Source of the DNA: Thiotrichales bacterium
GTDB lineage: Bacteria; Pseudomonadota; Gammaproteobacteria; HK1
DNA length: 64,000 nucleotides
Direction of reading: 5' to 3'
Assembly: GCA_026709935.1 (NCBI GenBank)
Contig: JAPOSC010000013.1
Span: 1 to 64,000, forward strand
The notes under the pieces are model-generated. The model was given only the letters and a program-made list of their open reading frames with translations, made no database searches and was not told where the DNA came from. Every line of letters begins with the position of its first letter. The first letter of the stretch is position 1. A program made the position numbers and the translations under genes. Shown in pieces: positions 10,602-24,670 of this stretch.

Positions 10602-11072
10602 TCAGAAATTCACTTGCCAGATGCTGGATGCCTGCTTCGCCATCCACCCCTGACGCGAACCGATTTTGTCCACCGTCCAGGCATCGAATTCCTCCGCCAG
10701 CTTTCTGGTGATCGCGAACTCACTCTCCAGATAGGCGCGTCGCCTCTCGGTAAATCCGGTGTTTCCCAGGCGCCGGTTCGGGTTCGAATCCAACAGTGTC
10801 ATGTTGCCCAGTCGGTAGGTTGACGCTTCGCGCTGCTGTTCATCGAATTGTTGCCAGTCGTCGCCGGGACTCTCCGGCAGTACGTGTTCGATGCTGTAGC
10901 CCATGTAGTGCGCAGGTTCGGGCTCGTCCCCGAACAGGCCGACGATGTCCAGCCACAGGTCATCCCAGTGGTCGACATCCCACGAATAGTCACGCTGGAA
11001 CCGAGGCACGCGATAGCTGAGCCCGTTTCCCATCAACTGGCGAAACGTCTGGCTCGTGGTGTTGAAGTTCAT
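10602..11072 (-). pseudogene. Internally deleted GmrSD-type restriction gene (DUF262 start fused to DUF1524 end)
   Basis: The 156-codon frame is open, but its two ends belong to a much longer protein. Residues 1-59 are the DUF262 N-terminus (RQLMGNGLSYRVPRFQRDYSW, then AHYMGY). The DUF1524 HNH end follows directly at SIEHVLPES, then RLGNMTLLDSNPNRRLGN and the C-terminal helix. In full-length GmrS/GmrD fusions several hundred residues lie between, including the DGQQR nucleotide-binding motif, which is absent here. The fusion point is near 10896. Either an in-frame deletion remnant or a mini-protein; nuclease activity without the NTPase core is doubtful. ATG 11072 is the family start. Confidence 0.75.
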
Positions 11073-11160
11073 GTTCGACCCACCACCACCGTTGTGTCCC
11101 CCGAGGGACTGAGACCCGCGCAAGGGAGGTGTGGCTGGCCCGATCCAATCCGAGTCCGTC

Positions 11161-12270
11161 TCACCCGCTCGCGGCTTGGGTGCCTCCCATGCCGGCCGGT
11201 GCCACCTCGTGGATCCAGCCGAAGGGATCGGGTCGGATGCCGTACTGGATGCCCATCATCTCGTCGAAGAGCCGCTCCGCGAACGGTCCGGTGCCGCCGT
11301 TCGCGATGTGATGGGTGCGGCCCTTGTAGTCGAGCGACCCGACCGGGGAGATGACCGCGGCGGTGCCGGCGCCGAATACCTCTTCGAGGGTTCCGTCGGC
11401 ATGCGCGTCCAGCACCTCCTCGATGGTGATGGGGCGTTCCTCCACCGGCACCCCCCACTGCCCGAGCAGGCTGAGCACCGACTCCTTGGTGATGCCGGCG
11501 AGGATGGTCTCGCCGACCGGCGGGGTGACCACGGTGCCGGCGATCTTGAACAGGATATTCATCGAGCCGACTTCCTCGACGTACCGCCGCTCGGCCGCGT
11601 CGAGCCAGAGCACCTGCGTGAAGCCGCGCCCGAGAGCCTCCTTCTCCGCCTTGAGGCTTGCCGCGTAGTTCGCGGCCGTCTTGGCCGACCCGAGCCCGCC
11701 CGGCCCTGCCCGCGAGTACTTTTCGGACACCGTGATCTTCACCGGATTGAAGCCCTCGGGGTAGTACGCCCCGACCGGTCCGGTGATGATGAAGAACAGT
11801 GCCTCGTGGGTGGACTTGAGTCCGATGTAGGGCTCGGTCGCCACCATGGTGGGCCGGATGTAGAGCGACGTCCCGTGCGAGCGCGGGATCCATTCGTGGT
11901 CGAGTTCGAGAAGTTGCTCGATCGCTCCGGCAAAGATGTCGGGCTCGACCTCCGGAAGGTCGAGCCGCACGGCGGAGCGGTTGAAGCGCACACAATTTTC
12001 CGCCGCCCGGAACAGGTTCACGGTGCCCTTGCGGTTCCGGTACGCCTTCAGCCCTTCGAAGATCATCTGCCCGTAGTGGAGCACCAGGGCGGCGGGCGAC
12101 AGCTCCAGGTTGGCGAACGGCTGGATCGTCGGCTCACCCCAGCCACCGTCCGAGGTCCAGCGCATGGTGAACATGTGGTCGCTGTAGATCTTCCCGAAGC
12201 CGAGCGAGTCCTCGTCCGCAGGCTTCGGCCGCCGCTGCTCCGGCGGCACCGTCTTGATCCGGAAATCCAT
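11161..12270 (-). CDS. ilvE: Branched-chain amino acid aminotransferase
   Basis: 369 aa, the length of the larger (BCAT group II) form. It interconverts Leu/Ile/Val and their 2-oxo acids with glutamate, using PLP, in the cytoplasm. Motifs include FGKIYSDHMFTMRW at the start, HYGQMIFEGLKAYR, the PLP-lysine segment NYAASLKAEKEA, and the phosphate-binding GITKESVL and GTAAVISPVG blocks. ATG 12270 is supported by the family N-terminus. The gene stands alone, downstream of the LarA-like gene on the same strand with an AT-rich gap of about 118 bp. Confidence 0.93.
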   Translation of the reverse strand: MDFRIKTVPPEQRRPKPADEDSLGFGKIYSDHMFTMRWTSDGGWGEPTIQPFANLELSPAALVLHYGQMIFEGLKAYRNRKGTVNLFRAAENCVRFNRSAVRLDLPEVEPDIFAGAIEQLLELDHEWIPRSHGTSLYIRPTMVATEPYIGLKSTHEALFFIITGPVGAYYPEGFNPVKITVSEKYSRAGPGGLGSAKTAANYAASLKAEKEALGRGFTQVLWLDAAERRYVEEVGSMNILFKIAGTVVTPPVGETILAGITKESVLSLLGQWGVPVEERPITIEEVLDAHADGTLEEVFGAGTAAVISPVGSLDYKGRTHHIANGGTGPFAERLFDEMMGIQYGIRPDPFGWIHEVAPAGMGGTQAASG

Positions 12271-12388
12271 CGTGTTTCGCAGCCTCCCGCCCTGATGGTG
12301 TGCGGCAATTGACCGCCGGCCGCCGCCGGCGGATCGAAGGGCGCAATCTAGCCCGCATTTCTCACCAAGTCACGGCTGCGGCCGCGTT

Positions 12389-13693
12389 TCAGGGCGCGAC
12401 GAGCGTCAGTGCGTCGTCGAGTCGGATGGGGGCGGGTTCGGAGAGCACCTCGAGGCTCGGGTGGGCACGGGCCTCGTCGAGCAGCGCCTGCGACGCCCAC
12501 AGCTCGTCGAGCATGGACGTGTTGCGAATCCACGCGAGTCGCAGCGAGGCCGGATCCTCCTCGGCGCGGAAGTTCAGCAGCACCTGAAGCGCCTGCAGCT
12601 CGTTCTCCACCAGCATCGGGACCTTGCAGATGGACAGGCGCTTGGCGGTGAACGCGTTCATGTACGTCGAATTGAGATCCACATGCGGCAGGAGCGAACG
12701 CGGCATGATGTCGGCGTTGCCGAGCCCGACCGCGTTGCCGTGGGTCCCTTCGGTGAGGCCGCGCACATAGATGGCGCCGATCTGCGGCCGGGTCAGACCG
12801 TCCTTCTTGCCGATGACGTTGGTGTCCATGCCCGCCCCGCTCACGTTCTTGCCGATCTCGTCGACGATGAGCCCGTCGAGTTCATCGAAGGGCAAACGCG
12901 GGAAAAGCGCGTAGGCGTGCTCCAGCAATGCGCTCTCGGCGTCGAGCAGTGCGTCGCAGTCTCCGACCGGCAAGCCCCGGACGACGGCGGTCTCCTTGAA
13001 GGCGTTCTCCACCAGAGCGATGGCGCCGACGAGCCGCGGGCGGGCGGACTCCACGATGATGCGGGTCGCCTCCAGCACCAGCCGCCCCATGCCGAGGCGC
13101 AACGCCTGATGGTGGATCTTCGAAGCGCCGGCCTGCTTGCCCATGCCGATGACGAGCATCTTGCAGATGCCGCTCTCCACCCGCTCGGTGAACCCGGTGT
13201 GCGGCTTGACCCGGTTGACCACGAGGACCCCGTCCGCGTCATGGCAGAGCCGGTCCTGGTAGACCGGGAACCCGGAGCCGGTAGTCCCGATTTGCACCAC
13301 CTCCATACTCGACTCGATGCGACATCCGACGCTCTCCTCGGTGATGCCGTTGGTGTCGGCGAGCACCTGCCGCTGACCTTCGGCCGTCGCGCCGCCATGG
13401 CTGCCCATGGTGGGCGCCACGAAGGGGTCGGCGCCGGCTTCGCGAAGCGCGCTCACGCACTCCCGCACCACGAGCGCGAGATTGGCGATCCCCCGGCTCG
13501 ACCCGGTCACCGCGATACGCTGCCCGGCCTCGACGTTGGCGAGCACCGGTGTCATCTCCCGCCGCACCGCGGCGGCAAGGTCCGGCTCAACGGGGCGGGG
13601 GAACTGCTGGCGGAGCCTGAAGACGGAGGGGACATCGTCCTGTCCGACCCCGGCGTGGGCATCGTCGAGGAGGAAACGAGTGGCGTTTTGCAT
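12389..13693 (-). CDS. LarA-like (DUF2088) protein, lactate racemase superfamily
   Basis: 434 aa. The N-terminal half has the LarA-type fold signatures: VTGSSRGIANLALVVRECV, PFVAPTMGSHGGATAEGQ and VNRVKPHTGFTERVESGICKML, with His residues where LarA binds its nickel-pincer cofactor. Family members are 2-hydroxyacid racemases or epimerases, but most DUF2088 proteins have no known substrate. ATG 13693 is chosen because the upstream in-frame extension (to 13861) has no family similarity. No larB/larC/larE genes are nearby, so cofactor supply would come from elsewhere. Confidence 0.75.
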   Translation of the reverse strand: MQNATRFLLDDAHAGVGQDDVPSVFRLRQQFPRPVEPDLAAAVRREMTPVLANVEAGQRIAVTGSSRGIANLALVVRECVSALREAGADPFVAPTMGSHGGATAEGQRQVLADTNGITEESVGCRIESSMEVVQIGTTGSGFPVYQDRLCHDADGVLVVNRVKPHTGFTERVESGICKMLVIGMGKQAGASKIHHQALRLGMGRLVLEATRIIVESARPRLVGAIALVENAFKETAVVRGLPVGDCDALLDAESALLEHAYALFPRLPFDELDGLIVDEIGKNVSGAGMDTNVIGKKDGLTRPQIGAIYVRGLTEGTHGNAVGLGNADIMPRSLLPHVDLNSTYMNAFTAKRLSICKVPMLVENELQALQVLLNFRAEEDPASLRLAWIRNTSMLDELWASQALLDEARAHPSLEVLSEPAPIRLDDALTLVAP

Positions 13694-13900
13694 GACGTGG
13701 AGCGACCGTATGTGAATGTCGGTCTGCGTATTGTTCGCCACGGCGCCCGCGCGTTTCAATGAGGCTGCGGCATGGAGCCGCGGAAAACCGAATGTGCGAT
13801 TACCACCATCGCCGAGCGGATCGGGCTGTAATGACAACCGCGCCGCCATCATCCGTAGCATTATTGCTACAGAGTGATCAGAGTGCTATTTTCGCTTTCC

Positions 13901-14149
13901 ATGAGCAGGACGATTTCCCAGAGAGAGCTCCGCAACGATTCCGGCGCGATTCTGCGCGAGGTGCAGGCCGGTCAAACGATCATCGTCACCCGAAACGGGG
14001 TGCCGGTGGCCGACCTCCGCGCGGTTCCACAGCGGCGGTTCGTCCATCGGGCGGTGATTGCCGAGGCGGCGCGGCGCGCCCCTCGGGTCGATGCCGATCG
14101 CATGCGCGCCGATCTGGATGCTGTCGTGGATCAGTCCGTCGATGGGTGA
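13901..14149 (+). CDS. Phd/YefM family antitoxin
   Basis: 82 aa. MSRTISQRELRNDSGAILREVQAG...VTRNGVPVADLRAV is the standard Phd/YefM DNA-binding N-terminus; the basic/acidic C-terminus should wrap the toxin. It probably represses its own operon. Its stop overlaps the start of the downstream PIN toxin by eight bases (ATG 14142, TGA 14147-14149), typical of coupled antitoxin-toxin pairs. An upstream GTG at 13874 is possible but the family starts at 13901. Confidence 0.88.
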   Translation: MSRTISQRELRNDSGAILREVQAGQTIIVTRNGVPVADLRAVPQRRFVHRAVIAEAARRAPRVDADRMRADLDAVVDQSVDG

Positions 14150-14543
14150 GACGACCAGAGGGTTGCTCGATACATCGGTGGTGATCGACCATGACATCGT
14201 CGATCCGGCGGCGCTCCCGGACGAATCCGCAATTGCCGCCGTGACGCTTGCCGAGCTCGCGGCCGGTCCTCACGCCACCGTTGACGATGCGGAAAGGGCA
14301 CGGCGTCAGGATCGTCTCCAGTGGGCGGTCGCCACGTGGGAGCCCCTGCCCCTCGACGCGGAGGCCGCTCGCGCCTACGGCCGCGTATTCGCAGCCACGA
14401 GAGCGAAAGGGCGATCCAGCCGAATGCGCCTGGCTGATTTGCTCATTGCGGCGACTGCCGCCGCCCACGGTCTGCCGCTCTACACCAGAAACCCTGGGGA
14501 TCTCGTCGGTCTGGAGGAAATCGTCCACGTAGTCGGTGTGTGA
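14142..14543 (+). CDS. vapC: VapC-type PIN-domain RNase toxin
   Basis: 133 aa. PIN fold with the acidic metal-binding set Asp10 (GLLDTSVVID), Glu38 (VTLAELAAGP), Asp99 (RMRLADLLIAATA) and Asp120 near the TRNPGD motif. VapC toxins cleave tRNA or rRNA and are held inactive by their antitoxin. Start ATG 14142 overlaps the antitoxin stop. All active-site residues look intact, so this pair is probably functional, in contrast to the other toxin genes in this window. Confidence 0.88.
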   Translation: MGETTRGLLDTSVVIDHDIVDPAALPDESAIAAVTLAELAAGPHATVDDAERARRQDRLQWAVATWEPLPLDAEAARAYGRVFAATRAKGRSSRMRLADLLIAATAAAHGLPLYTRNPGDLVGLEEIVHVVGV

Positions 14544-14659
14544 TACCAAAATTCTGCGCGTTGAAGGCGGAGCTGGAAGAGGCGATGCGGGAAGCCGAAG
14601 CTGGCGGGTTCGAGGAGTTCGATGCCTTGGCTTACGAGCCGTCCGCCTCCGATAGATAA
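14540..14659 (+). CDS. 39-codon acidic mini-ORF overlapping the vapC stop
   Basis: Starts with GTG inside the vapC stop (GTGA overlap) and runs to TAA 14657-14659. It encodes an acidic helical peptide ending EEFDALAYEPSASDR. The tail resembles the C-termini of small ParD-like antitoxins (helix, then F-D), so it may be an antitoxin fragment or a small third gene in the operon. No independent Shine-Dalgarno. Confidence 0.3.
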   Translation: MIPKFCALKAELEEAMREAEAGGFEEFDALAYEPSASDR

Positions 14660-14680
14660 TCCTCAAGACATGACGATACG

Positions 14681-15679
14681 ATGAAATACCGACCCCTCGG
14701 CCGCACCGGTGTGCGGGTCTCGGAGCTCTGTTTCGGCACCATGCAGTTCGGCAGCGACGCTGACGAGGAGACGTCGGCCCGGATGTATGCGGCTGGTCGT
14801 GACGCGGGCATCAACTTCTTCGATACCGCCAACAACTACAGCGGCGGGGCGTCCGAGCGCATTCTTGGCCGCCTGATCAAGGGGCATCGGGACGAGCTGA
14901 TCATCGCCACCAAGTGCTACAGCCCCGAGGGCGACGACATCAACGCCCGGGGCGCGTCGCGCCGCCACGTGGTTCGCGGAGTGGAGGCGAGCCTGAAGCG
15001 GCTCGGCACCGATCGGGTGGACATTCTGTTCCTGCACCAGTTCGACCGGCTCACCCCGATCGAGGAGCAGATGCGCGGGTTGGAGGATCTCGTGCGGTCG
15101 GGGAAAGTGCTCTACCCCGCCGCCAGCAACTACTCTGCGTGGCAGACGATGGAGGCCATCGCCGCCCAGAGACGCCACGGTTGGGCGAGGCTCCAGGTTG
15201 TCGAGCCGATGTACAACCTCGTGAAGCGCCAGGCTGAAGTGGAGATCCTGCCGATGGCCGAGACCCACGGGATCTCGGTGATTCCCTACAGCCCCACCGG
15301 CGGGGGGTTACTCTCGGGGAAGTACGCCGGCGGCGGCGACAACAACCGGGGCCGGCTGCATACCAACACGATGTACACGGTCCGGTACGAAGAGCAATGG
15401 ATGCACGAAGTCGCGGCGCGGTTCACGGCTTTCTGCGCCGAACGCGGGCTGCATCCGGTGAGCACCGCCGTCGCCTGGGTCGGCGCGCATCCGGCGGTGA
15501 CCGCGCCGATCATCGGTGCCCGCAACGTCGAGCAGCTCCGCGCCTCGCTTGACTCGTTGTCGATCGACATGACCCCGGCGCTGAGAGCGGAGATCTCCGC
15601 GCTCTCGCGCACCCCGCCACCCGCGACTGACCGTTCGGAAGAGCTGAAACGCCAGTCGGGACCTTCCTCCGGACCGTAG
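14681..15679 (+). CDS. Aldo/keto reductase
   Basis: 332 aa NAD(P)H-dependent oxidoreductase with a TIM barrel. The catalytic tetrad is visible: Asp in FFDTANNYSGG, Tyr in the same loop, Lys in LIIATKCYSPEG and His in DILFLHQFDR. The C-terminal cofactor region has PIIGARNVEQL. It belongs to the YajO/Tas-like (AKR11-13) bacterial group. Substrate unknown. The start fits the family (MKYRPLGRTG). It is convergent with the M20 gene. Confidence 0.9.
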   Translation: MKYRPLGRTGVRVSELCFGTMQFGSDADEETSARMYAAGRDAGINFFDTANNYSGGASERILGRLIKGHRDELIIATKCYSPEGDDINARGASRRHVVRGVEASLKRLGTDRVDILFLHQFDRLTPIEEQMRGLEDLVRSGKVLYPAASNYSAWQTMEAIAAQRRHGWARLQVVEPMYNLVKRQAEVEILPMAETHGISVIPYSPTGGGLLSGKYAGGGDNNRGRLHTNTMYTVRYEEQWMHEVAARFTAFCAERGLHPVSTAVAWVGAHPAVTAPIIGARNVEQLRASLDSLSIDMTPALRAEISALSRTPPPATDRSEELKRQSGPSSGP

Positions 15680-15802
15680 AAGCGGAGGCCGGCCTCCGGG
15701 GATATGGACGCACCGCCCGCTTTAACGATTGCGGGCACCTCCGCCCCGGCCATCGGCGTCCGGAATCCGTCGCCGGGGTGGAATTGTGACCGCGCGAGGG
15801 GC

Positions 15803-17062
15803 TTACGCGGCCCGTGCCTCCCGGCCGGTCGTCTCCCGTTCGTCCGCATCGAAGCGATCGAGAAACCGGAGCAGGACCCGCGCGGCGACTTCCGCGTCCG
15901 CTGCGGTCATGGATTCCGCGGGGTGGTGGCTGATCCCTTCCTTGCAGCGCACGAAGAGCATCCCGATCTCGGTGAGATCGGCCATTGCCATGGCGTCGTG
16001 GCCCGCCCCGCTCGGGAGCCGGCGCACCTCGAATCCTTCCGCCGCGACCGCGGCGCCGAGCCGGCGCACGAGCCGCGGGCTGCACAGCCGGGCTCCGGAC
16101 TCGTGGGTCGGAACGCAGTCGAAGTGCACCCCGCGCCGCGCCGCGATCTCGGCGAGGGCCTCGTCGATGCGATCCTGAGCGGTCTGACGCAGATCGTCGC
16201 GCTCCCCCCGCAGATCGATGGTGAACTCGACGACGCCCGGGATGACGTTGACCGCCCCCGACACGGTCCTCAGCATCCCGACCGTTCCCACCGTGCCCGG
16301 AGTGTCCAGGCAGATCCGCTCGATCGCGACCACCGCCTCCGACGCGGCCGCCAGCGCGTCGCGGCGCAGATGCATGGGGACGGTCCCCGCGTGGCCGGCC
16401 CGCCCCATCACCTCGACCCGCAGCCGGACGGCGCCGGAGATCGAAGTCACCACCCCGACCGGCAGGTCCTCCGCTTCCAGCACCGGTCCCTGTTCGATAT
16501 GGACCTCGACGTACGCGGCGACCTCGTCGCGGTCGTAGGCGGCGTCGGCCGCCCGGTCCGGGTCGAGCCCGAACTCGCGCATCGCCTCTTGAAGACGCAC
16601 CCCGTCCTCGTCCACGGCCTGGAGCATTTCCGGGTCGAGCGTGCCGGCGACGGCCTGGCTTCCGAGCAGCGTCGCCTGGAACCTGACCCCCTCCTCGTCT
16701 CCGAACGCGATGACATCGACCGGATAGTCGAGCCGCTCGCCACGCTTGTGCAGCGACCGCAGACAAGCGATGGGCAGCAGCACCCCCAGCGCCCCGTCGA
16801 ACCTGCCGGCGTTGCGCACCGTGTCCTGGTGCGAGCCCAGGACGAGCCGGCGCGCCCCGGGCCGCCGCCCGGGGAAATGACCGACCACATTGCCCACCGC
16901 GTCGAGCCGCGCACTCATGCCCGCCTCGCGCATCCAGCCCATGATCATCTCTGCGGCGCGGGCGTGCTCGGGGGTCAGGTAGCGGCGCGTGAGCTCGGCG
17001 GAGTCCTCGCTGCACTCCGCCAGCGCGTCGAGCCACTCCATGATCACAGGTCCGAGGTGCAT
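15803..17062 (-). CDS. M20 family amidohydrolase (allantoate/N-carbamoyl amino acid hydrolase type)
   Basis: 419 aa dinuclear-metal hydrolase. Metal ligands are visible in LVLGSHQDTVRNAGRFDGALG (His and Asp), FGDEEGVRF (Glu) and the late HHPAES block; the dimerisation domain has GRAGHAGTVPM. These fit the hydantoinase/carbamoylase (AtzC/HyuC) branch, which hydrolyses N-carbamoyl or allantoate-like ureido groups. ATG 17062 gives the family start (MEWLDALAECS follows). It lies downstream of the DddP-like gene on the same strand, separated by a hairpin. Confidence 0.87.
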   Translation of the reverse strand: MHLGPVIMEWLDALAECSEDSAELTRRYLTPEHARAAEMIMGWMREAGMSARLDAVGNVVGHFPGRRPGARRLVLGSHQDTVRNAGRFDGALGVLLPIACLRSLHKRGERLDYPVDVIAFGDEEGVRFQATLLGSQAVAGTLDPEMLQAVDEDGVRLQEAMREFGLDPDRAADAAYDRDEVAAYVEVHIEQGPVLEAEDLPVGVVTSISGAVRLRVEVMGRAGHAGTVPMHLRRDALAAASEAVVAIERICLDTPGTVGTVGMLRTVSGAVNVIPGVVEFTIDLRGERDDLRQTAQDRIDEALAEIAARRGVHFDCVPTHESGARLCSPRLVRRLGAAVAAEGFEVRRLPSGAGHDAMAMADLTEIGMLFVRCKEGISHHPAESMTAADAEVAARVLLRFLDRFDADERETTGREARAA

Positions 17063-17201
17063 GCGTTCAATCGTCGCCGGCGAGGGAAATGCCGTCCGCG
17101 TCTTGGAAGGGTGGCGAAGGCCGCGGCAGTCGCAAGCTCGCTCCGTCCCTACGGGTGCGCCTGCGCGCCCTGTCTCGCGTTCGCCTTGCGAAATCCCACA
17201 A

Positions 17202-17218
17202 GGCTTGCGAAGCAAGCC
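17202..17218 (-). terminator. Perfect 7-bp hairpin between dddP-like gene and M20 gene
   Basis: Bases 17202-17208 pair exactly with 17212-17218 around a gaa loop. It lies about 50 bp beyond the stop of the DddP-like gene and before the M20 start on the same strand, so it may end that transcript. There is no T-run, so the terminator role is a guess. Confidence 0.3.
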
Positions 17219-17269
17219 GATGCCTGACCATCTCCGCGCCCTCGCTTCGCGAATCGGTGAATTTCCGGG

Positions 17270-18514
17270 CTAGAGCCAGCGCTCCTCCAGGGGATACGTG
17301 GAGAGCTGTTCGAATCCGTCTGCGGTGATCAGCACCTGCTCCTCCAGCTTGACCGCCTCCCGGCCCCCGACCGGCGCGGCCAGTGCCTCGACGCACATCA
17401 CCATGCCTTCCCTGAACACGCCGTCGTAGCCGTTCGCCTCCCAGTCCTGCGGGTAGCGGATGGCGGGATATTCGTCGCAGAGCCCCACCCCGTGCATCGC
17501 GACGCCGTACCGCTGGGCCGCGAACTCCTCGCCCAGGGGAAGCAGCGACTCGGTCAGTTCACGGAAGGACAGCCCCGGCTTCAGCAACGCCTTGTTGTGC
17601 TGGATGTGGGCGTAGGCGTCGGCGTAGATGCGCCGCTGCTCGTCCGTCGGCTTTGCGTCGCACACCCACGAGCGGGAGATGTCGCAGCAGTAACCGTAGG
17701 GGCCGACGAGGTCGGTGTCGAAGCTCACCATGTCGCCCCGCTCGATGACCCGCATCGAGCACTCCCGGAACCAGGGGTTGGTGCGCGGCCCGGACGAAAG
17801 CAGGCGGGTCTCGATCCACTCGCCGCCGCCGGCGATGTTGCCGTGGTGCAGCTCGGCCCACAGCGCGTTCTCGGTGATGCCGGGCCGCATCGCCTCGCGC
17901 ATCTGCCCCATCGCTTGTTCGCACACCGCGATGGAATGGCGCATGAGCGCAATCTCGCCCGCGGACTTGATCTCCCGGGCGTTTTCCATCACCTCGAATC
18001 CATCGAAGATCTCGTAACCGTGGCGCTGCAGCTCGATGACCCCCTGCGGCGCGATGCGGTCGATGGCGATGCGCCGGTTCCCGCCGCTGTGTTCGCGGAT
18101 CAGAGCGTCCATGGCTGCGGCCCATTGCCGAGCCTTGTCCGTGTGCCTCGAACCCGCCCCGAAGTACAGGAAGGCGATGGCGGGGCGGATCTCGTCGATG
18201 GTCGGGATGCCCGCGCCGAGCAGGTCCTTGCCGCCGTAATCGAACAGCACCACGGGGCCTTCGGCCGGCACGTAGACGTAGCGGACCTCGTTGTGGACGC
18301 ACCAGATCTGCATGTTGGTCGCGTCGATCGCGTAGCGCGTGTTGAGCGTGTCGTAGAGGATGATGCCCGCGAGATCGCGTTCGACGAGAGCCTGGCGGAC
18401 CCGCCCGAGCCGGTAACGACGCACCTCGTCGAGATCGCAGGGCGGGGTGGTGTGGTCCATCGCGCCATGCTGGCGGGCGCCGGCCTGGACCCTGGCGCTG
18501 GAGATGCGGTTCAT
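17270..18514 (-). CDS. dddP: DddP-type M24 family protein, candidate DMSP lyase
   Basis: 414 aa with a pita-bread (M24 peptidase) C-terminal domain. It matches what I know of DddP, which splits dimethylsulfoniopropionate into DMS and acrylate, in distinctive blocks: RYAIDATNMQIW, GGEWIETRLLSSGPRTNPWF, FDTDLVGPYGYCCDISRSW, YGVAMHGVGLCDE and KLEEQVLIT. The metal-ligand pattern Asp-x-Asp, Asp, His, Glu, Glu is complete, and the Tyr and Asp flanking the His (Y-x4-H-x5-D) that act in DddP catalysis are kept. ATG 18514 or 18460 could start it. A relative with peptidase activity cannot be excluded. Only the M20 hydrolase is near; no acrylate-use genes are adjacent. Confidence 0.75.
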   Translation of the reverse strand: MNRISSARVQAGARQHGAMDHTTPPCDLDEVRRYRLGRVRQALVERDLAGIILYDTLNTRYAIDATNMQIWCVHNEVRYVYVPAEGPVVLFDYGGKDLLGAGIPTIDEIRPAIAFLYFGAGSRHTDKARQWAAAMDALIREHSGGNRRIAIDRIAPQGVIELQRHGYEIFDGFEVMENAREIKSAGEIALMRHSIAVCEQAMGQMREAMRPGITENALWAELHHGNIAGGGEWIETRLLSSGPRTNPWFRECSMRVIERGDMVSFDTDLVGPYGYCCDISRSWVCDAKPTDEQRRIYADAYAHIQHNKALLKPGLSFRELTESLLPLGEEFAAQRYGVAMHGVGLCDEYPAIRYPQDWEANGYDGVFREGMVMCVEALAAPVGGREAVKLEEQVLITADGFEQLSTYPLEERWL

Positions 18515-18665
18515 GTGTCGAGTCCGAGAGGTGATCGAAGGTCGTCTCCGGTGCCGCGACACCGGCCCCCACGCGGCCTCCGGCGGGAGGCGTTGGCCGG
18601 TACGACGATAGCACAGGGCCCCGCCTCCGCATCCATGATCGGTTAGCACGTTGAATTGCATAGAA

Positions 18666-18914
18666 TCATATCCATGCGGCGCCACACTCGACCCGTTCGA
18701 TGAGCAATCGCCGGGACTGATTCGGGTCGGGAGCCTCGTGCCGCATCATTGATTCGAGACGCCGCGCAATCCCCTTCGATACCCTCGGCGGCAGTACGAC
18801 GATATCGAGTATCACGGGCGCGGCCGCGGCAAAGACCGCCGCCCAGCGCTGTTCGGGCATCTTGTAAGCCGTGCGTCGCAATCGTTCCTGCACCGCAAGG
18901 AGCAGCCGATCCAA
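18666..18914 (-). CDS. Hypothetical 82-aa protein, possible fragment
   Basis: Open frame with a TTG start and a helical, Arg/Leu-rich product. A mid-section is hydrophobic (WAAVFAAAAPVILDIVVLPP) and followed by a basic region. No family recognised and no clear ribosome site. It sits just outside the decayed toxin-antitoxin area and may be the tail of a lost gene. Confidence 0.3.
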   Translation of the reverse strand: MDRLLLAVQERLRRTAYKMPEQRWAAVFAAAAPVILDIVVLPPRVSKGIARRLESMMRHEAPDPNQSRRLLIERVECGAAWI

Positions 18915-19013
18915 TCTGATCAGAGGGCGTGGCCCGCTTCAAGTCCTTGTTCTCTCGCCGATTCCGACGCTATCCGAACACGGATGCGCGAGACGGCAGT
19001 CGGTTTCGGTCAT

Positions 19014-19142
19014 GGAGATTCTCTCGGCACGTGATCAGGGGCGCCGACCCTGATGCCGTTCGTTCTCGACACTTCGGCCACCGCATCCTGGTGTTTCGAG
19101 TATGAGGACACGCCGGTGGCGGATACGGCGATGGATCGGCTG
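19014..19142 (+). pseudogene. Truncated VapB tail and VapC N-terminus
   Basis: A short frame ending ...RDQGRRP (stop TGA 19051-19053) overlaps the ATG of a clear VapC N-terminus at 19053 by one base, the usual antitoxin-toxin junction. The VapC part reads MPFVLDTSATASWCFEYED...VADTAMDRL, with the first PIN Asp, then loses similarity at about 19142. There it joins the sequence carrying the 83-bp repeat. So a VapBC pair was cut on both sides by recombination, leaving only the junction. Confidence 0.6.
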
Positions 19143-19177
19143 CCGGGTGACACAGGTCGGACGATAGGGCTAGAGGG

Positions 19178-19260
19178 GCAGGTTGCGAGAACACGGGAGA
19201 CGGAGATGCGACGATTGGCACTGGAGCAAGGCGGCACAGGAAGCACGAACCCGATGAGCC
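19178..19260 (+). repeat. 83-bp direct repeat, copy 1
   Basis: About 75 of 83 bases match 20633-20715. The same reading frame is open in both and encodes QVARTRE-x-E-x-RRL-x-LEQGGTGS-x-NPMS. Of the base differences about three are silent. Copy 1 is fused in frame after the truncated VapC start. Confidence 0.75.
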
Positions 19261-19402
19261 TGTTCGCACCGTTACGATGCCGGCGAGATTGTCGGCGGCA
19301 GCCTTGCTCATTCGCAACTCCACCGTGACTTCGCTGTCGGTATCGGAACACGATGCCAAGTGTACAATTCAATGATTCGGCGATGAGTTCAGGACTGTCG
19401 CC

Positions 19403-19697
19403 ATGAGAGAGGATTTCAAGGCTGTTGATATTGATAGATCGGCTCAGGCAGCACAGAACACGCTGCATCTGCAATGCCGAAATGCTGGACGAGATCCGGG
19501 GATTGTCGGGGCACAGAGTCCTCGTGTACGGCGATATCGGTTACAACAAAGATGGGAAGCCAATCGCCATTCGGGTACGGCAATTCCAACGCCTGCGGAC
19601 CCGGGACGAGTTACCTCAGTCACACGACCTGCGAGGCGCATTCGCAAATTCGGCGGTGGCAGCAAGTGACCATGCGGATTATTTGCGGGAAAACTGA
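19403..19697 (+). pseudogene. Frameshifted small protein resembling a VapC-partner antitoxin
   Basis: The ATG frame at 19403 (MREDFKAVDIDRSAQ) loses sense after about 30 codons. A second frame, open to 19697, continues with well-formed protein sequence: EIRGLSGHRVLVYGDIGYNKDGKPIAIRV, then LRTRDELPQSHDLRG and a C-terminal YLREN. This beta-rich body with an LP...DLRG tail resembles small antitoxin-like proteins that accompany PIN toxins in other bacteria, from memory. One indel near 19480 would reconcile the frames. It lies between a broken VapC and an unusual PIN gene. Confidence 0.4.
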
Positions 19698-19757
19698 CGA
19701 CCAAGGATCGGTTCCGGCTGACACAGGTCGAACGATGAGAGGGAGAGAGGTAGGAAG

Positions 19758-20396
19758 ATGCGCAAGATCGCGGTGGACGCAAACCTGTTGGTCAGGAACG
19801 CAGCGCGCCGGCTAATCCTGGGGACCGCCGAGCTGACAGGGTGCGGAGTCATCGTACCCGAAACTGCGGATCTGATGAGCAGGCAGGTGTACCGCAAGGT
19901 GAGAGGCAGTGGCGCCAGAGCACAAGTCATGCACGAGATGATCAAGGAAGGGAAGGACATCCACAGCGAGGAAGGGGCTGAGAGACTGAAGAACAGGTTG
20001 GACCTGCAAGAAGCGGATTTCGCGCGATGGCTGGACACGGAACCGGAACGGAACGACGGGGTACTGGAGAGAGGCCCGAGAACGGAGCAAACGAAGAGGA
20101 CGGCCGCAGCCTTGCTGGCCGCTGGGGTAGTAGAGGACGCGGAGGATACGAGGTTCGGTACTGGTGAGGACCCGCAGGTGCTGGCGGAGGCGCTGGAAGC
20201 CGGCGCGCAATGGATCGCGAGCGACAACCTCAAGACGATCGTGGTGGGGGCGATGGAGAGGTGGTTCGACAAGGAGCAGGTGATGGGGCGGTATATGCAC
20301 GTTCCGCGACCGTTCATCTTGCAGGCGGACGAAGCGGTCGGACAGTTGTTGAAGGAACACGACCCGCAAAGAATGGCGGACCCGTGGCAGGCCTAG
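19758..20396 (+). CDS. PIN-like nuclease domain protein
   Basis: 212 aa, longer than VapC. Acidic residues fit a PIN active site: Asp7 (KIAVDANLLVR), Glu35 (VIVPETADLM), Asp138 (GTGEDPQVLAEAL) and Asp156 (QWIASDNL). The middle (about 50-115) is a charged helical insertion. The plus strand here is strongly purine-rich, unlike the genes further left, which hints at a different origin. A tgacacaggtcg-acgat motif before it (19719-19736) repeats one at 19148-19165 before the first 83-bp repeat. RNase or toxin function is inferred; the partner is unclear. Confidence 0.6.
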   Translation: MRKIAVDANLLVRNAARRLILGTAELTGCGVIVPETADLMSRQVYRKVRGSGARAQVMHEMIKEGKDIHSEEGAERLKNRLDLQEADFARWLDTEPERNDGVLERGPRTEQTKRTAAALLAAGVVEDAEDTRFGTGEDPQVLAEALEAGAQWIASDNLKTIVVGAMERWFDKEQVMGRYMHVPRPFILQADEAVGQLLKEHDPQRMADPWQA

Positions 20397-20539
20397 GTCT
20401 TGCGGGTAGCCGTATGTGCCGCACTGTGCGAGTCCGAAAGTCGGGATGTAGACGTGGAGAACAGGGTGTGGAATCTCGGACGATTCGGGAGCGGCGTGGT
20501 CAACGGGGGAGCGAGAGATACCGGAGGACTGGTACGAAG

Positions 20540-20866
20540 ATGGACACGAATGGCGAAGATGAGGCTCGACAGGGGACGGCGCGCGGAGGTGGTGAAGGAT
20601 CTCGCGAGGATGCGCGATGTCGTGAGCACGAAGCAGGTTGCGAGAACACGAGAGGCGGAGGCGCGACGGTTGTCACTGGAGCAGGGCGGCACAGGAAGCC
20701 CGAACCCGATGAGCCCGCAGGAGAGTGCGAGGTAGGGTGGTGGAAGGACGCACTGGACGAAGTGGGAGACAGGGAGGAACTCTGGATGATCGCGTGGGCG
20801 TGGGAGAAGGCGTACCCCGGCGAGAGCGGAGACGCGGCCGTGAGCGGGTGGACGTATTGGGATTAG
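20540..20866 (+). CDS. Hypothetical protein overlapping repeat copy 2
   Basis: 108 codons from ATG 20540. The C-terminal 45 residues look like real protein (WWKDALDEVGDREELWMIAWAWEKAYPG...WTYWD), while the first half is low-complexity Gly/Arg/Glu. A second, shorter frame (20550-20735) overlaps it and carries the repeat in the same frame as copy 1. Which frame is used, or whether this is a frameshifted fusion, cannot be decided. Confidence 0.3.
   Translation: MDTNGEDEARQGTARGGGEGSREDARCREHEAGCENTRGGGATVVTGAGRHRKPEPDEPAGECEVGWWKDALDEVGDREELWMIAWAWEKAYPGESGDAAVSGWTYWD
20633..20715 (+). repeat. 83-bp direct repeat, copy 2
   Basis: Second copy of the 19178-19260 sequence, 1455 bp away (a multiple of three). 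Here the frame continues MSPQESAR and stops. Both copies sit at the end of decayed toxin-antitoxin material. Confidence 0.75.
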
Positions 20867-20976
20867 GGACCACCAGCGGGCGGCATGTCCCCAGCAGGGT
20901 TTCACATCGAGGCCCGGACGGATCAAGGTCCGAGTTCGAGGTGCCTATGGAGCCAAGCGAGATGAAAGGTAATTAG

Positions 20977-22372
20977 GTCGAGGCCGCGATGGGCGCACGC
21001 ATCGTCATCATGAATCCACCGTTCACGAATCGAACGAAGATGGGCGAGAAATTCCCCGACGAGGTTCAGAATGCTTTGCGACAGCGGGTCGATGCACTGG
21101 AGTCGGGCCTGATCCGGAACGATCCGGAACGATCCGGAACTCGAGGGAGTTGCAAGCAAAACGGCGATCGCACCATTGTTTGAGATGTTGGCCGATCGCG
21201 TCGCAGATACTGCCAATGGTGTTGTAGCGATGATCAGGCCCACAATTGTATGTTCAGGCCCCTCCAATGAGCAGATACGCAGGGTCCTCGCCAAGCGGTT
21301 CCATATCCACACACTGCTGACATGTCACTGTCCGGGAAATGTGAATCTGAGCCAGAATACCGCGATCAATGAGAGCCTGATCGTCATGCAACGCCATGGT
21401 GGAGGTGAGACACCTGCGACGCGCATTGTCGCCTTGGACCGGTTTCCGGGCGATGAGGCAGCGATGAGTGAGCTGTATGAAGCCCTGCATCGGACCGAAT
21501 CGGGACGACTCCCGGAGGGGTGGGGAGAGGTCTCACGATGGCCGGCCAAATGGACTGAAGCGGGGGACTGGACAGCGGGGGTGTTTCGCGCACCTGCGCT
21601 CGCCGAAGCGGCCTATGAGATTGCACACTCTTCGACACTGATTCCGATGGAAGAGCAGGAGATGGTGCCGTCTGCCGTCTTGATGGGTGGACAAATTGCG
21701 CAGTACAAGCGCCATGTGCAACCTGATGCATTGGGAGCCTTTCCAGTTTTCTACTCCAAGAGTGCGGATGTTCAACGAAAGATACGCGGCGCCCCCGACG
21801 AGCATTGGGCGCCTAGGCGAGAAGTTCGGCGGGAGCAGTGGGTGGACCTGCCAGATGCAGACGATTCGTTACACCCCGATACCGCAAGAGTCATGCGGCA
21901 CGCCGCTCACCTGCTAGTCACAGCCGGGCAGGATACCGGCACCGGTCGTCTGACGTCAGTGGTGCGGGACGAACCATCGCTTGGTTTGGGATGGCTTCCG
22001 GTCCCAGGCATTATGTTGGAGCAGGCTCGGGCGGCTTCCGTTTTTCTCAACTCGACCGCAGGGCGACTGCAACTGATGCGTAATCCTGGAATGAAACTGG
22101 CATTTCCTCAATACAACCCCGCGGGCCTGAAAACCATTCGTCTGCCCGACCTGTCCGACAAGGGCACCGTCGAGCGTCTGACGCGATACTGGGAAACTAC
22201 AGCAGATGAGGAGGTCCCCCAATACCGTGATGGCGAGTGCGAGGTCCGGCGCATCTGGGACGATGCGGTCTCCGATACTCTAGGATGGGACAAGGAGTGG
22301 CTGGCTGAACTCCGGCAGTGGCTGCATCGCGAACCTCATGTCCGGGGGCTTGGGTATAACCAGTTCGGGTGA
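20977..22372 (+). pseudogene. N6-adenine DNA methyltransferase remnant, frameshifted by a 10-bp triplication
   Basis: The catalytic motif IV appears as ARIVIMNPPFTNRTKMG (about 21001-21045). The C-terminal two-thirds continues from 21140 to 22372: MLADRVADTANGVVAMIRPT, then an FH-I-H-T-LLTCH...LSQNTAINESLIV block typical of N-6 DNA methylases, and target-recognition-like sequence. Two defects are visible. The frame upstream of the NPPF motif is closed by TAG at 20974 and no AdoMet motif I is found. Three tandem copies of gatccggaac (21111-21140) shift the frame; with two copies the protein reads straight through. Probably the solo or fused methylase of a lost restriction system. Confidence 0.78.
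21111..21140 (+). repeat. Three tandem copies of a 10-bp unit inside the methyltransferase frame
   Basis: The unit gatccggaac is repeated exactly three times. The unit is not a multiple of three, so each gain or loss changes the frame. With two units, codons run from ...LIRNDPE into LEGVASKTAIAPLFEML without a stop; with three, translation stops at 21181-21183. Confidence 0.9.
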
Positions 22373-22495
22373 GCGTGCTCCTGGTGATGGAGTGGACTGA
22401 CTGACGGCTCTGCACGACGGAGACGCGGGATTTCGAGCGGTTTATAGCAGAAGAAGACGGCCTGGCAATGAACAAATTCACGAAGTGTGAAAACC

Positions 22496-23083
22496 ATGTC
22501 AACCCTCCAATTTCCCTATCGAAACCGATGGCCAACGCGCCAGTCAGCAACGGTGCCTACAATGCCGATGCGGTGGAGAATCATCGACACCAGTCCCTAC
22601 CCCGGAAGGTATATCACGGGAGAACTCAGTTTGAATCTCCCATTCGGCACCGTCGCAGACTGGCATCCAACCGTATGGAAAACAAGCTGTGAACATCCAT
22701 TAAGCACACGCTCGCGCGGTCGCGACGCATGCTGCACGCTTGGGAATGCACTGTGGGAAGTCGAAGGACTCGTGGATGCGCGAGATGCGCTTCAACAAAT
22801 CGGTCATCCCCAAGGGGATTCGCACACCGTGATATGGGCGGCAAAGCATGCGCGCGCAGTAGCCGAAATGGTTCTGACAGGTCTCTTTGCAGACAAAAAA
22901 ATATACAGCCCAGACCCCAGAACAGTGATCAGATGGTTGTCCAGAAAAAAAATGGAAGAATGCAGAACATACCTGCAATCGGTCCAACACAGACTCTCAC
23001 TCGAACAAGCAGATGAACTGCGGAGTTGGATGGAAAGGACCTATCAGGACCCACTTCTGCACGTGAACAACAGGACCTCGTGA
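22496..23083 (+). CDS. Unknown protein coupled to an AbiEii-like nucleotidyltransferase
   Basis: About 195 aa from ATG 22496; GTG 22487 or the internal ATG at 22565-22571 are alternatives, the last giving a cleaner start MRWRIIDTSPYPG. I recognise no family. Visible features are an N-terminal beta-like part (PGRYITGELSLNLPFGTVADWHP), a middle with TLGNALWEVEGLVDARDALQQIGHP and a helical, Arg/Lys-rich C-terminus. No clear winged-helix motif is seen, unlike AbiEi antitoxins. Its stop and the next start form TGATG, so the two are translated together. The codons are more AT-rich than the surrounding genes, suggesting transfer. By position it is the candidate antitoxin or regulator. Confidence 0.6.
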   Translation: MSTLQFPYRNRWPTRQSATVPTMPMRWRIIDTSPYPGRYITGELSLNLPFGTVADWHPTVWKTSCEHPLSTRSRGRDACCTLGNALWEVEGLVDARDALQQIGHPQGDSHTVIWAAKHARAVAEMVLTGLFADKKIYSPDPRTVIRWLSRKKMEECRTYLQSVQHRLSLEQADELRSWMERTYQDPLLHVNNRTS

Positions 23084-24054
23084 TGGAAATCATCCATGCT
23101 GACGAGGAAATGCAGACAATCGAAGCCCGACTGGGATGGATGCTGAACAACCTGTACAGAGAAAGCGACCGGAGGCAAAGCACATTTCAACGCCCCGTCC
23201 TGATCGGCGGCACAGCCCTCAGACGCGCCTATGGACTGACTCGACCGTCCACAGATCTTGATTTTGCCGTCGAAGACGCAAGCGAAATGGATTTGATCCG
23301 GCGAACAATCAAAAGAATCATGTCTGAACGGTGGCCGCAATCAAAAGAACATGTACGAACTGACGACGAGACGGGTTGGCACATCGGCGATCAAGTAAGC
23401 GGAATGCTGCTCCACTATGGAGGCATGATGATGCCAGCGACAACACTGGAGCTGGCACGGTTCCAGAATCAGATATGGACATTGCCCATGTCACGACTCG
23501 CCACCATGAAAGTCGACGTCGCCGATGGGAAAAGGCACAAGATCCGTGACCTGTACGACCTCGGATTCATCGCCGAACACTACCCGGGAGACTTGACCGA
23601 GCGCCAACTTCAAATCACAGACTCATTGGCACGACAACTGTACTCCACACAGAACCCCTGGCACCAAAATCATCTCCAGGACCCGCTCTTCGAACCCATT
23701 GAGCCGATTTCTCTGGCAGAGCAAATCCGCGAAGCGGTATCAGAAGCACACAGACACATCGATGGCGCAAGAAGGGGGCTATGGCTGAATCAATCGCAAG
23801 CGTTAGCAACCATGGAAGAGGTCTTGTTCGAATCCCCCGTGGGGGAATGGAGAACAACGCAACACGAATCCTGCGTTAAAGCACAATGGATCGCAAAGTC
23901 GGGAGAAATTCAATGGAGTGGCACGCTTGAAAACCACACGAGAGCCCAATCACTCGCTGATTTTCTCGGATTGGAAGACCCCAAGGAAGATGACAACAAG
24001 AAACACGACATGGCGCACTCCCGCAGGCGGGGCTCCAATGAGCACGAGCGCTGA
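23083..24054 (+). CDS. AbiEii/AbiGii-type nucleotidyltransferase toxin candidate
   Basis: 323 aa. The nucleotidyltransferase core is clear: VLIGGTALRRAYGLTRPSTDLDF at residues 39-61, with the GG and the metal-binding Asp58-x-Asp60. A later LATMKVDVADGKRHKIRDLYDLGFI fits the Lys and Asp of the AbiEii/MenT family, which add nucleotides to tRNA 3' ends. The C-terminal third is unusual, with WRTTQHESCVKAQWIAKSG and a Lys/Asp/Arg-rich tail. ATG 23083 is part of TGATG shared with the upstream gene. An abortive-infection toxin is the likely role; the target is not shown. Confidence 0.75.
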   Translation: MEIIHADEEMQTIEARLGWMLNNLYRESDRRQSTFQRPVLIGGTALRRAYGLTRPSTDLDFAVEDASEMDLIRRTIKRIMSERWPQSKEHVRTDDETGWHIGDQVSGMLLHYGGMMMPATTLELARFQNQIWTLPMSRLATMKVDVADGKRHKIRDLYDLGFIAEHYPGDLTERQLQITDSLARQLYSTQNPWHQNHLQDPLFEPIEPISLAEQIREAVSEAHRHIDGARRGLWLNQSQALATMEEVLFESPVGEWRTTQHESCVKAQWIAKSGEIQWSGTLENHTRAQSLADFLGLEDPKEDDNKKHDMAHSRRRGSNEHER

Positions 24055-24154
24055 TTGCACGACACGCTCCACTGAGTCGTTATCGACCTATCGGCAATTC
24101 CCCGCCAGTCGCACGGAGCGGCGGGGAGAATGCAGTGGGACACTGCACAAGGCA

Positions 24155-24670
24155 TTACGGAGTAGGAATGGGAGGGCACAAGGAACCGTATACCCGAACC
24201 TCCCCGTGGACATACGGCAGAATCGTGCCGGTGGCCCCTGGGTGCCTTGTGGTCAGTCGGACATTGTTGATCTCATTGTCGTCATTCGGATCGAGCGCGA
24301 TGCCCACATGGAAAATCTTAGGCTTAACTTGGCCAAGCAGACCGCTCGGGCGTTTCAGAACCCTCACGAAGAACGATTTCTCGGTATCCCCGGCTTCGAA
24401 GCGAAGCACACCCCGCTGTACGGCGTAATCGACATTCGGCACCGCTTCGCTGCCGTGGATGACGTAATTGCCCGAGCCACTGGCCCAGAGGACATTGGCC
24501 GCAGCGGGTCCTTGCTTCCTGACGATAAACTTGATCGCTGGATCGACATGAGTTGAAGAAAAAGCGAACTGCGCGAACTCGATAGTCGTCTCGTCATTGG
24601 CGACCAACAGAGCGGGCAGCAGTGTCAACATGCCTGTCAGAGTCAATGCCGTTGCTTTGAGCATCTTCAT
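24155..24670 (-). CDS. Exported protein with a Calx-beta-like domain
   Basis: 171 aa. Signal peptide MKMLKATALTLTGMLTLLPALLVA. The mature part matches a Calx-beta pattern: a strand pair, then NYVIHGSEAVPNVDYAVQRG, VLRFEAGDTEKSFFVRVL and a later DPNDDNEINNVRLTT. Such domains bind calcium or act as adhesive beta-sandwiches. The ATG has a GGAG at good spacing. It has no clear link to the defence genes on either side; function unknown. Confidence 0.65.
   Translation of the reverse strand: MKMLKATALTLTGMLTLLPALLVANDETTIEFAQFAFSSTHVDPAIKFIVRKQGPAAANVLWASGSGNYVIHGSEAVPNVDYAVQRGVLRFEAGDTEKSFFVRVLKRPSGLLGQVKPKIFHVGIALDPNDDNEINNVRLTTRHPGATGTILPYVHGEVRVYGSLCPPIPTP

Follow-up and report, generated by a model that had tools for sequence, protein, structure and literature searches.

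Introduction

The DMSP lyase DddP, which has been solved from Ruegeria lacuscaerulensis (RlDddP, PDB entry 4rzy) and Roseobacter denitrificans (RdDddP, 4b28), displays the pita-bread fold of the M24 family. The sections of the literature that deal with its active site describe six metal ligands (D295, D297, D307, H371, E406 and E421; PMC4108388), binding of the DMSP sulfur by one tryptophan and one tyrosine, abstraction of a proton by an aspartate, and the presence of an aspartate and a phenylalanine where M24 peptidases have a pair of substrate-binding histidines (PMC5395565). We take the residues of the latter account to be W95, Y366, D377 and the phenylalanine of an NPWF motif, an assignment that is our own.

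The same fold is found in prolidases and aminopeptidase P, and in M24 members that are not peptidases, such as creatinase (a metal-free enzyme) and the ectoine hydrolase DoeA, both of which act on small substrates of the osmolyte type. Described here is an M24 gene in a window of 64,000 nucleotides (the whole stretch of DNA that was analysed, from a contig of a Thiotrichales bacterium), which an earlier note had proposed as a candidate DddP.

The gene and its predicted product

The gene (17270-18514, minus strand) comprises 414 codons and runs from an ATG at position 18514 down to 17270. Its reading as an M24-fold protein was borne out by several lines of evidence: the 414-residue product (P0001) matches Peptidase_M24 and no other Pfam family (106.6 bits, residues 190-398), and its best PDB sequence matches are 4rzy (with its mutants) and 4b28, at E-values of about 1e-105 to 1e-107, followed by prolidases at about 1e-13. 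A structure predicted from an alignment of 59 proteins (alignment A1, that is, the window's protein and those of 58 of 80 related loci; pLDDT 88.4, pTM 0.89) superimposes on 4rzy and 4b28 with TM-scores of 0.90-0.91 at 41-44% identity, whereas peptidases, creatinases and DoeA reach 0.62-0.76 among the 50 matches listed. The prolidases and aminopeptidase P share the fold at about 20% identity, and DoeA and creatinase at 17-19%, the latter two having been compared at the level of fold and overall identity rather than by a residue-level alignment of their active sites.

Active-site residues and their distribution

The earlier note had drawn attention to three sequence blocks, all of which are present on the minus strand: TNMQIW (residues 66-71, positions 18302-18319), in which W71 corresponds to RlDddP W95; GGEWIETRLLSSGPRTNPW (residues 230-248, positions 17771-17827); and Y336-x4-H341-x5-D347 (positions 17474-17509), which corresponds to RlDddP Y366, H371 and D377. 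Across the query and 58 relatives, most of the positions in these blocks show either no variation or conservation of at least 90%, which is more than chance would give. The query retains equivalents of all six DddP metal ligands (D266, D268, D278, H341, E376 and E391) as well as those of W95, Y366 and D377 (W71, Y336 and D347), and shares with DddP the GGEWIETRLL-SGPRTNPWF block. The two substrate-binding histidines of M24 peptidases are absent, and the matching blocks carry D347 and F249, the latter being the probable counterpart of the DddP phenylalanine. Every residue named in print as required for DMSP cleavage therefore occurs in the query, a point that counts against assigning it a betaine-type substrate.

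The same residues are found well outside DddP. Nine positions (W95, the six ligands, Y366 and D377) are identical throughout the query's own group (17 rows), its sister group (59 rows), a Rhizobium/Burkholderiaceae-type group (6 rows), a group from a single family, designated f52 (9 rows) and DddP itself (21 rows), and are kept even in two proteins at 32-33% identity. Five paralogues from the window's genus, at about 40-44% identity, keep most of these positions (W95 in 2 of 5, D297 in 4 of 5, D377 in 3 of 5). W95, D297, Y366 and D377 are missing from three unrelated M24 proteins of that genus; for Asp297, Tyr366 and Asp377 the comparison with other M24 proteins thus covers these three rather than the solved prolidases. 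W95, D297, Y366, D377 and the NPW block are equally well kept in related clades not called DddP, and GGEWIETRLLSSGPRTNPW is conserved well beyond it. Neighbouring clades with the same ligands, tryptophan, tyrosine and aspartate include plant- and insect-associated bacteria, the proteins of the latter being annotated as peptidases. Among them are 'Xaa-Pro peptidase family' proteins from plasmids of Rhizobium, Paraburkholderia, Caballeronia and Pseudomonas, which have about 45-51% identity and the same catalytic set, are not labelled as DddP, and have genes for Rieske oxygenases or betaine transport as neighbours. Because these residues are kept in clades other than DddP, they are not diagnostic of it: the set is characteristic of a broad M24 subfamily, and the blocks, although present as the earlier note had described, are not DddP-specific.

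Relationship to DddP

The query scores 447.6 bits against the NCBIfam equivalog model for DddP (NF043017), below its cut-off of 600. All 59 clade members that were scanned (the window's protein and those of 58 of 80 loci) match the model and none exceeds the cut-off; the best of them (E 1.8e-137) is weaker than the weakest match above it (E 7.5e-191). Of the 398 genomes surveyed in the phylum of the window, 17 contain a match above the cut-off (635-903 bits), and a profile search of the window's own genome returned none. To these sequences were added 4rzy and three plasmid genes labelled dddP (L085, L148 and L149), included by structure or label rather than by rescoring against NF043017.

In a first tree of 128 rows, from which nine partial or duplicate rows had been removed beforehand, the 21 DddP rows (above cut-off, labelled or solved) form a single clade with an SH-aLRT support of 100, and the query falls inside a different clade of 79 rows with a support of 99. 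A second, maximum-likelihood tree, built from a hand-picked subset of 61 rows that leaves out long branches, again unites the DddP rows (19 rows, 100/100), with the f52 group as their sister (98/94), and joins the query's orthologs and their sister group in a separate clade (100/98). A tree constrained to join the DddP rows to the 11-row query ortholog group is worse by 44 log-likelihood units, and the AU test rejects it (p 0.000683); this grouping was chosen with the tree already known. Both trees cover bacterial sequences other than any known as SAR116, and fungal DddP lies outside their sampling. The earlier note had named a phylogeny with characterised DddP and M24 peptidases as a check of the DddP identification, and a position outside the DddP clade as grounds for refuting it; the trees place the query outside that clade. 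Its identity to DddP-clade proteins reaches 53% (L135, above the cut-off) and 51% (L085, from Oceanisphaera).

The separation is accompanied by fixed sequence differences. The N-terminal arm of over-cut-off DddP sequences (N(D/N)xxRxEIGPTxLA in the five rows printed) is missing from the query clade, which instead carries the signature RQHGAM (residues 14-19, positions 18458-18475, minus strand). Of the 76 clade rows compared, which leave out L019, L086 and L090, 74 keep R14 of that signature and all keep Q15, A18 and M19. Two switches lie beside active-site residues: RlDddP P100, near the tryptophan, is replaced by E76 (18287-18289, minus strand), with glutamate in 76/76 clade rows and proline in 18/21 DddP rows; and Q279 is replaced by R250 (17765-17767, minus strand), adjoining F249, with arginine in 76/76 clade rows and glutamine in 21/21 DddP rows. 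N96, also near W71, becomes C72 in 73/76 clade rows. The plasmid-encoded 'Xaa-Pro peptidase family' proteins form a further separate clade, with glutamine (one histidine) at the position of R250 and proline, phenylalanine or alanine at that of E76.

DddP is thus the closest characterised homologue of the query in sequence and fold, and its full residue set is present; against an identification as DddP stand the model cut-off, the position in the trees and the missing arm. The protein belongs to a clade that is related to DddP yet distinct from it, and the DddP label does not stand.

Gene neighbourhoods of the relatives

A scan of genome collections yielded 87 relatives, of which the best 80 (52-90% identity) were retained. 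Gamma-, Alpha- and Deltaproteobacteria and SAR324 MAGs appear in their record titles, several of which mention sea samples; within the window's genus an ortholog occurs in 2 of 5 genomes, its own included. Viral contigs contained no stretch matching the query's patterns, and phage records gave only remote M24 matches (6 records, 25-30% identity in the five listed).

Genes that often adjoin the M24 gene in the sister group encode DAO plus GcvT proteins (resembling dimethylglycine dehydrogenase or TMAO demethylase), MttB-family methyltransferases, GbcA-like Rieske oxygenases or M19 dipeptidases. In four loci (L022, L023, L036 and L052) a DMGDH-like match on the same strand ends 24-40 bp from the M24 frame, and in 18 the M19 dipeptidase is the next gene; in Vibrio natriegens and Pseudomonas aeruginosa, a predicted dipeptidase gene forms part of glycine-betaine clusters, the source not saying whether it is of the M19 family (PMC12093977). 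Twelve MAG loci nearer to the query share a conserved run, with an FkbM methyltransferase (12 loci), AAA (9), VWA (10) and MaoC (10) genes ahead of the M24 gene and PhyH (11) behind it, and with matches to homocysteine S-methyltransferase (10) and choline sulfatase (3) nearby. At three Rhodospirillales MAG loci (L007, L008 and L011) the opposite strand carries a Rieske gene at a distance of about 1.2 kb, and the plasmid relatives from Parasedimentitalea, Pseudomonas, Rhizobium, Paraburkholderia and Caballeronia have in their vicinity genes for sarcosine oxidase, MttB, BCCT or glycine-betaine transporters, Rieske oxygenases or 4-hydroxyproline epimerase.

At least one of four core markers (MttB, DMGDH-like, Rieske and sarcosine oxidase, each at 100 bits or more) is present in 20/62 sister-group loci, 4/17 ortholog loci and 8/11 other non-DddP loci (six plasmids and two of five further genomes), compared with 1/18 DddP-clade loci and 1/20 control stretches, the one positive control (L207) having an MttB match. 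Addition of M19, homocysteine methyltransferase and choline sulfatase raises these counts to 33/62, 14/17 and 8/11, against 1/18 and 1/20; the ortholog figure of 14/17 rests mainly on one conserved operon. For the core markers, Fisher tests give p 0.017-0.031 for the sister group, p <=0.0003 for the other non-DddP loci and p 0.16-0.18 (not significant) for the orthologs. The markers were picked after the neighbourhoods had been seen, several of them from loci that were then counted, and the loci are related, so that the counts are indications and the Fisher values descriptive. The controls were taken from genomes that gave DddP-clade and other matches rather than from MAGs, the neighbour clusters are each named by one representative protein, and the 62 sister loci include three partial M24 genes (L054, L079 and L083) and many loci that end close to the gene.

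Within the DddP clade the exceptions are L149, with a Rieske gene, and L194, with a BCCT match. Two loci of the f52 group, the sister of DddP, both contain MttB and DMGDH-like matches, and a betaine-pathway origin of DddP is therefore worth testing.

Several further features of these loci were recorded. The DddP-labelled gene of a Loktanella salsilacus plasmid (L149) has genes for a Rieske oxygenase and an NADH:flavin oxidoreductase in its vicinity. That of a Paracoccus yeei plasmid (L148) adjoins a mandelate-racemase/muconate-lactonizing-enzyme gene and has hydantoinase genes close by; the three P. yeei records are from human samples, an odd location for a DMSP lyase. In 19 loci (L037:9292-11031 and 18 others) the second or third gene after the M24 gene encodes a conserved protein of about 579 residues, whose representative matches nothing in Pfam or NCBIfam at 0.001; a DUF3726 protein follows it in 13 loci. 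Two of the Rhodospirillales loci carry a second M24 copy upstream of the first (L008:2370-3578 and L011:1129-2337), preceded by an ATPase gene of an oligopeptide-type ABC transporter.

Surroundings of the query and the rest of its genome

Downstream of the query, on the same strand, lies a gene for an amidohydrolase of the M20 hydantoinase/carbamoylase family (15803-17215, minus strand, as the longest open frame; an in-frame ATG at 17062 is the likelier start), which exceeds the cut-offs of TIGR01879 (378.9 bits against 204) and of NF006775, 'allantoate amidohydrolase' (556.8 against 479). L005 and L090 are the only relatives in which it accompanies the M24 gene, at 79-80% identity; these represent one lineage, since their M24 proteins are identical, and L005 additionally keeps the window's aldo-keto reductase. 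A further relative, L006, lacks the M20 gene and has an FAD amine-oxidase-like gene (DAO) just upstream of its M24 gene. Searches for a promoter or terminator consensus in 16900-18900 and for an inverted repeat in 16950-17350 were negative. None of the core markers occurs in 11000-24500 of the window, which counts against a betaine-type role; because the gene adjoins a member of the N-carbamoyl-amino-acid-hydrolase family rather than a betaine gene, its function is read here from its relatives. Elsewhere in the window (12389-13861, minus strand) is a gene for a nickel-pincer-cofactor-dependent isomerase, group 22 (NF052515, 446 bits, cut-off 400).

The genome as a whole encodes five full-length MttB-family matches and one fragment. 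Its acrylyl-CoA-reductase-family gene exceeds the cut-off of TIGR02823 (432 bits) and falls below that of the AcuI equivalog (346 against 440), and two cupins, both on minus strands, exceed the Pfam DMSP_lyase cut-off (L178:6537-7262, contig C51, and L179:5500-6120, contig C26). The PDB sequence matches of both cupins are all DMSP lyases, and both keep a YP-H-x-H...E-x-Y motif; no NCBIfam model names either. A search for the DMSP demethylase DmdA gave 13 matches, none above the cut-off, the best (155 of the 410 bits needed) in an 825-residue frame. A second M24 protein of the same genome (L177:6927-8225, contig C18) has 41% identity to the query and 291.5 bits to the DddP model, and its gene adjoins a GcvT-SHMT fusion.

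Given the reductase-family gene and the two cupins, DMSP use by the organism is plausible, and in our judgement the cupins are better DMSP-lyase candidates than the M24 protein. A marine or host-linked niche, which the earlier note had proposed for the case that the enzyme is active on DMSP, may be correct in view of the sea samples named for several relatives, although that line of reasoning itself loses its footing.

Possible functions

The account that we prefer, and to which we would give an even chance of being right, is that the query represents a separate, DddP-related clade of dinuclear-metal M24 enzymes that acts on a small methylated-ammonium (betaine-type) zwitterion, and is not a dedicated DMSP lyase; the nature of the substrate is suggested by the neighbourhoods of its relatives. 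In such an enzyme the metal pair would hold the carboxylate of the substrate, W71 and Y336 would hold its onium group, and D347 would act as general base in an elimination or a hydrolysis, while the fixed residues R250 and E76, which to judge from their position in the sequence may line the pocket, would select a substrate other than DMSP. A literature search returned no work linking M24 proteins to MttB and betaine, or to proline betaine and Rieske oxygenases, and nothing on DddP homologs with SAR324 and glycine betaine; for 'DddP-like' the sole match was on dddP primers.

The strongest competing explanation is that the query is a working DMSP lyase, or a DddP in a broad sense, in which a metal-bound DMSP carboxylate, W71 and Y336 around the sulfonium and D347 as base would yield DMS and acrylate. 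We regard this as possible but unlikely; it retains that standing because DddP is the closest characterised homologue and the metal and catalytic set is complete. In its favour are (i) the presence of all six ligands and of the W95, Y366 and D377 equivalents; (ii) the structural match to RlDddP and RdDddP, the nearest structures; (iii) the 51-53% identity to a labelled and an over-cut-off DddP; (iv) the acrylyl-CoA-reductase-family gene; and (v) a trench survey that reports dddP in MAGs of Gammaproteobacteria and SAR324, having kept homologues at E <= 1e-50 that were then filtered by a tree (PMC7494906). Against it stand the missed cut-off, the position outside the DddP clade, the lack of the N-terminal arm with fixed differences beside active-site residues, the occurrence of the same catalytic residues in Rhizobium, Paraburkholderia and Caballeronia proteins encoded beside Rieske or betaine genes, and the failure of the genome's reductase to reach the AcuI threshold.

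It is more doubtful that the query hydrolyses a C-N bond of a dipeptide, a creatine-like or a ureido compound, in partnership with the downstream protein of the N-carbamoyl-amino-acid-hydrolase family. Membership of the M24 family, the same-strand M20 neighbour kept in L005 and L090, the M19 dipeptidase that adjoins the M24 gene in sister-group loci, and the existence of creatinase and DoeA as more distant fold relatives are in keeping with such an activity. The peptidase histidines are, however, replaced as in DddP (by F249 and D347), the structures of peptidases, creatinase and DoeA fit the model less closely, and RlDddP, which has the same residue set, is described in PMC5395565 as having no measurable activity on Val-Pro. 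An enzyme of the creatinase type in particular is argued against by the metal ligands of the query.

Implications

A label of DMS producer is not yet justified by this gene, and would be premature because the protein lies on a separate branch and many of its relatives are encoded beside genes for the breakdown of betaine-type methylated amines. A broader proposal, which extends the preferred account of a betaine-type substrate and which we consider improbable but worth stating, is that DddP arose within a wide M24 subfamily whose original role was the catabolism of quaternary-ammonium betaines, that the query clade is one present-day branch of that subfamily (for example, an eliminase or hydrolase of a nitrogen analogue of DMSP), and that marine dddP surveys with loose thresholds include such enzymes among the DMSP lyases. 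Should a large clade that has the full set of DddP motifs act otherwise, counts based on motifs or E-values would overstate the potential for DMS production, and the query clade would offer a testable origin for DddP, in methylated-amine catabolism rather than in peptide hydrolysis.
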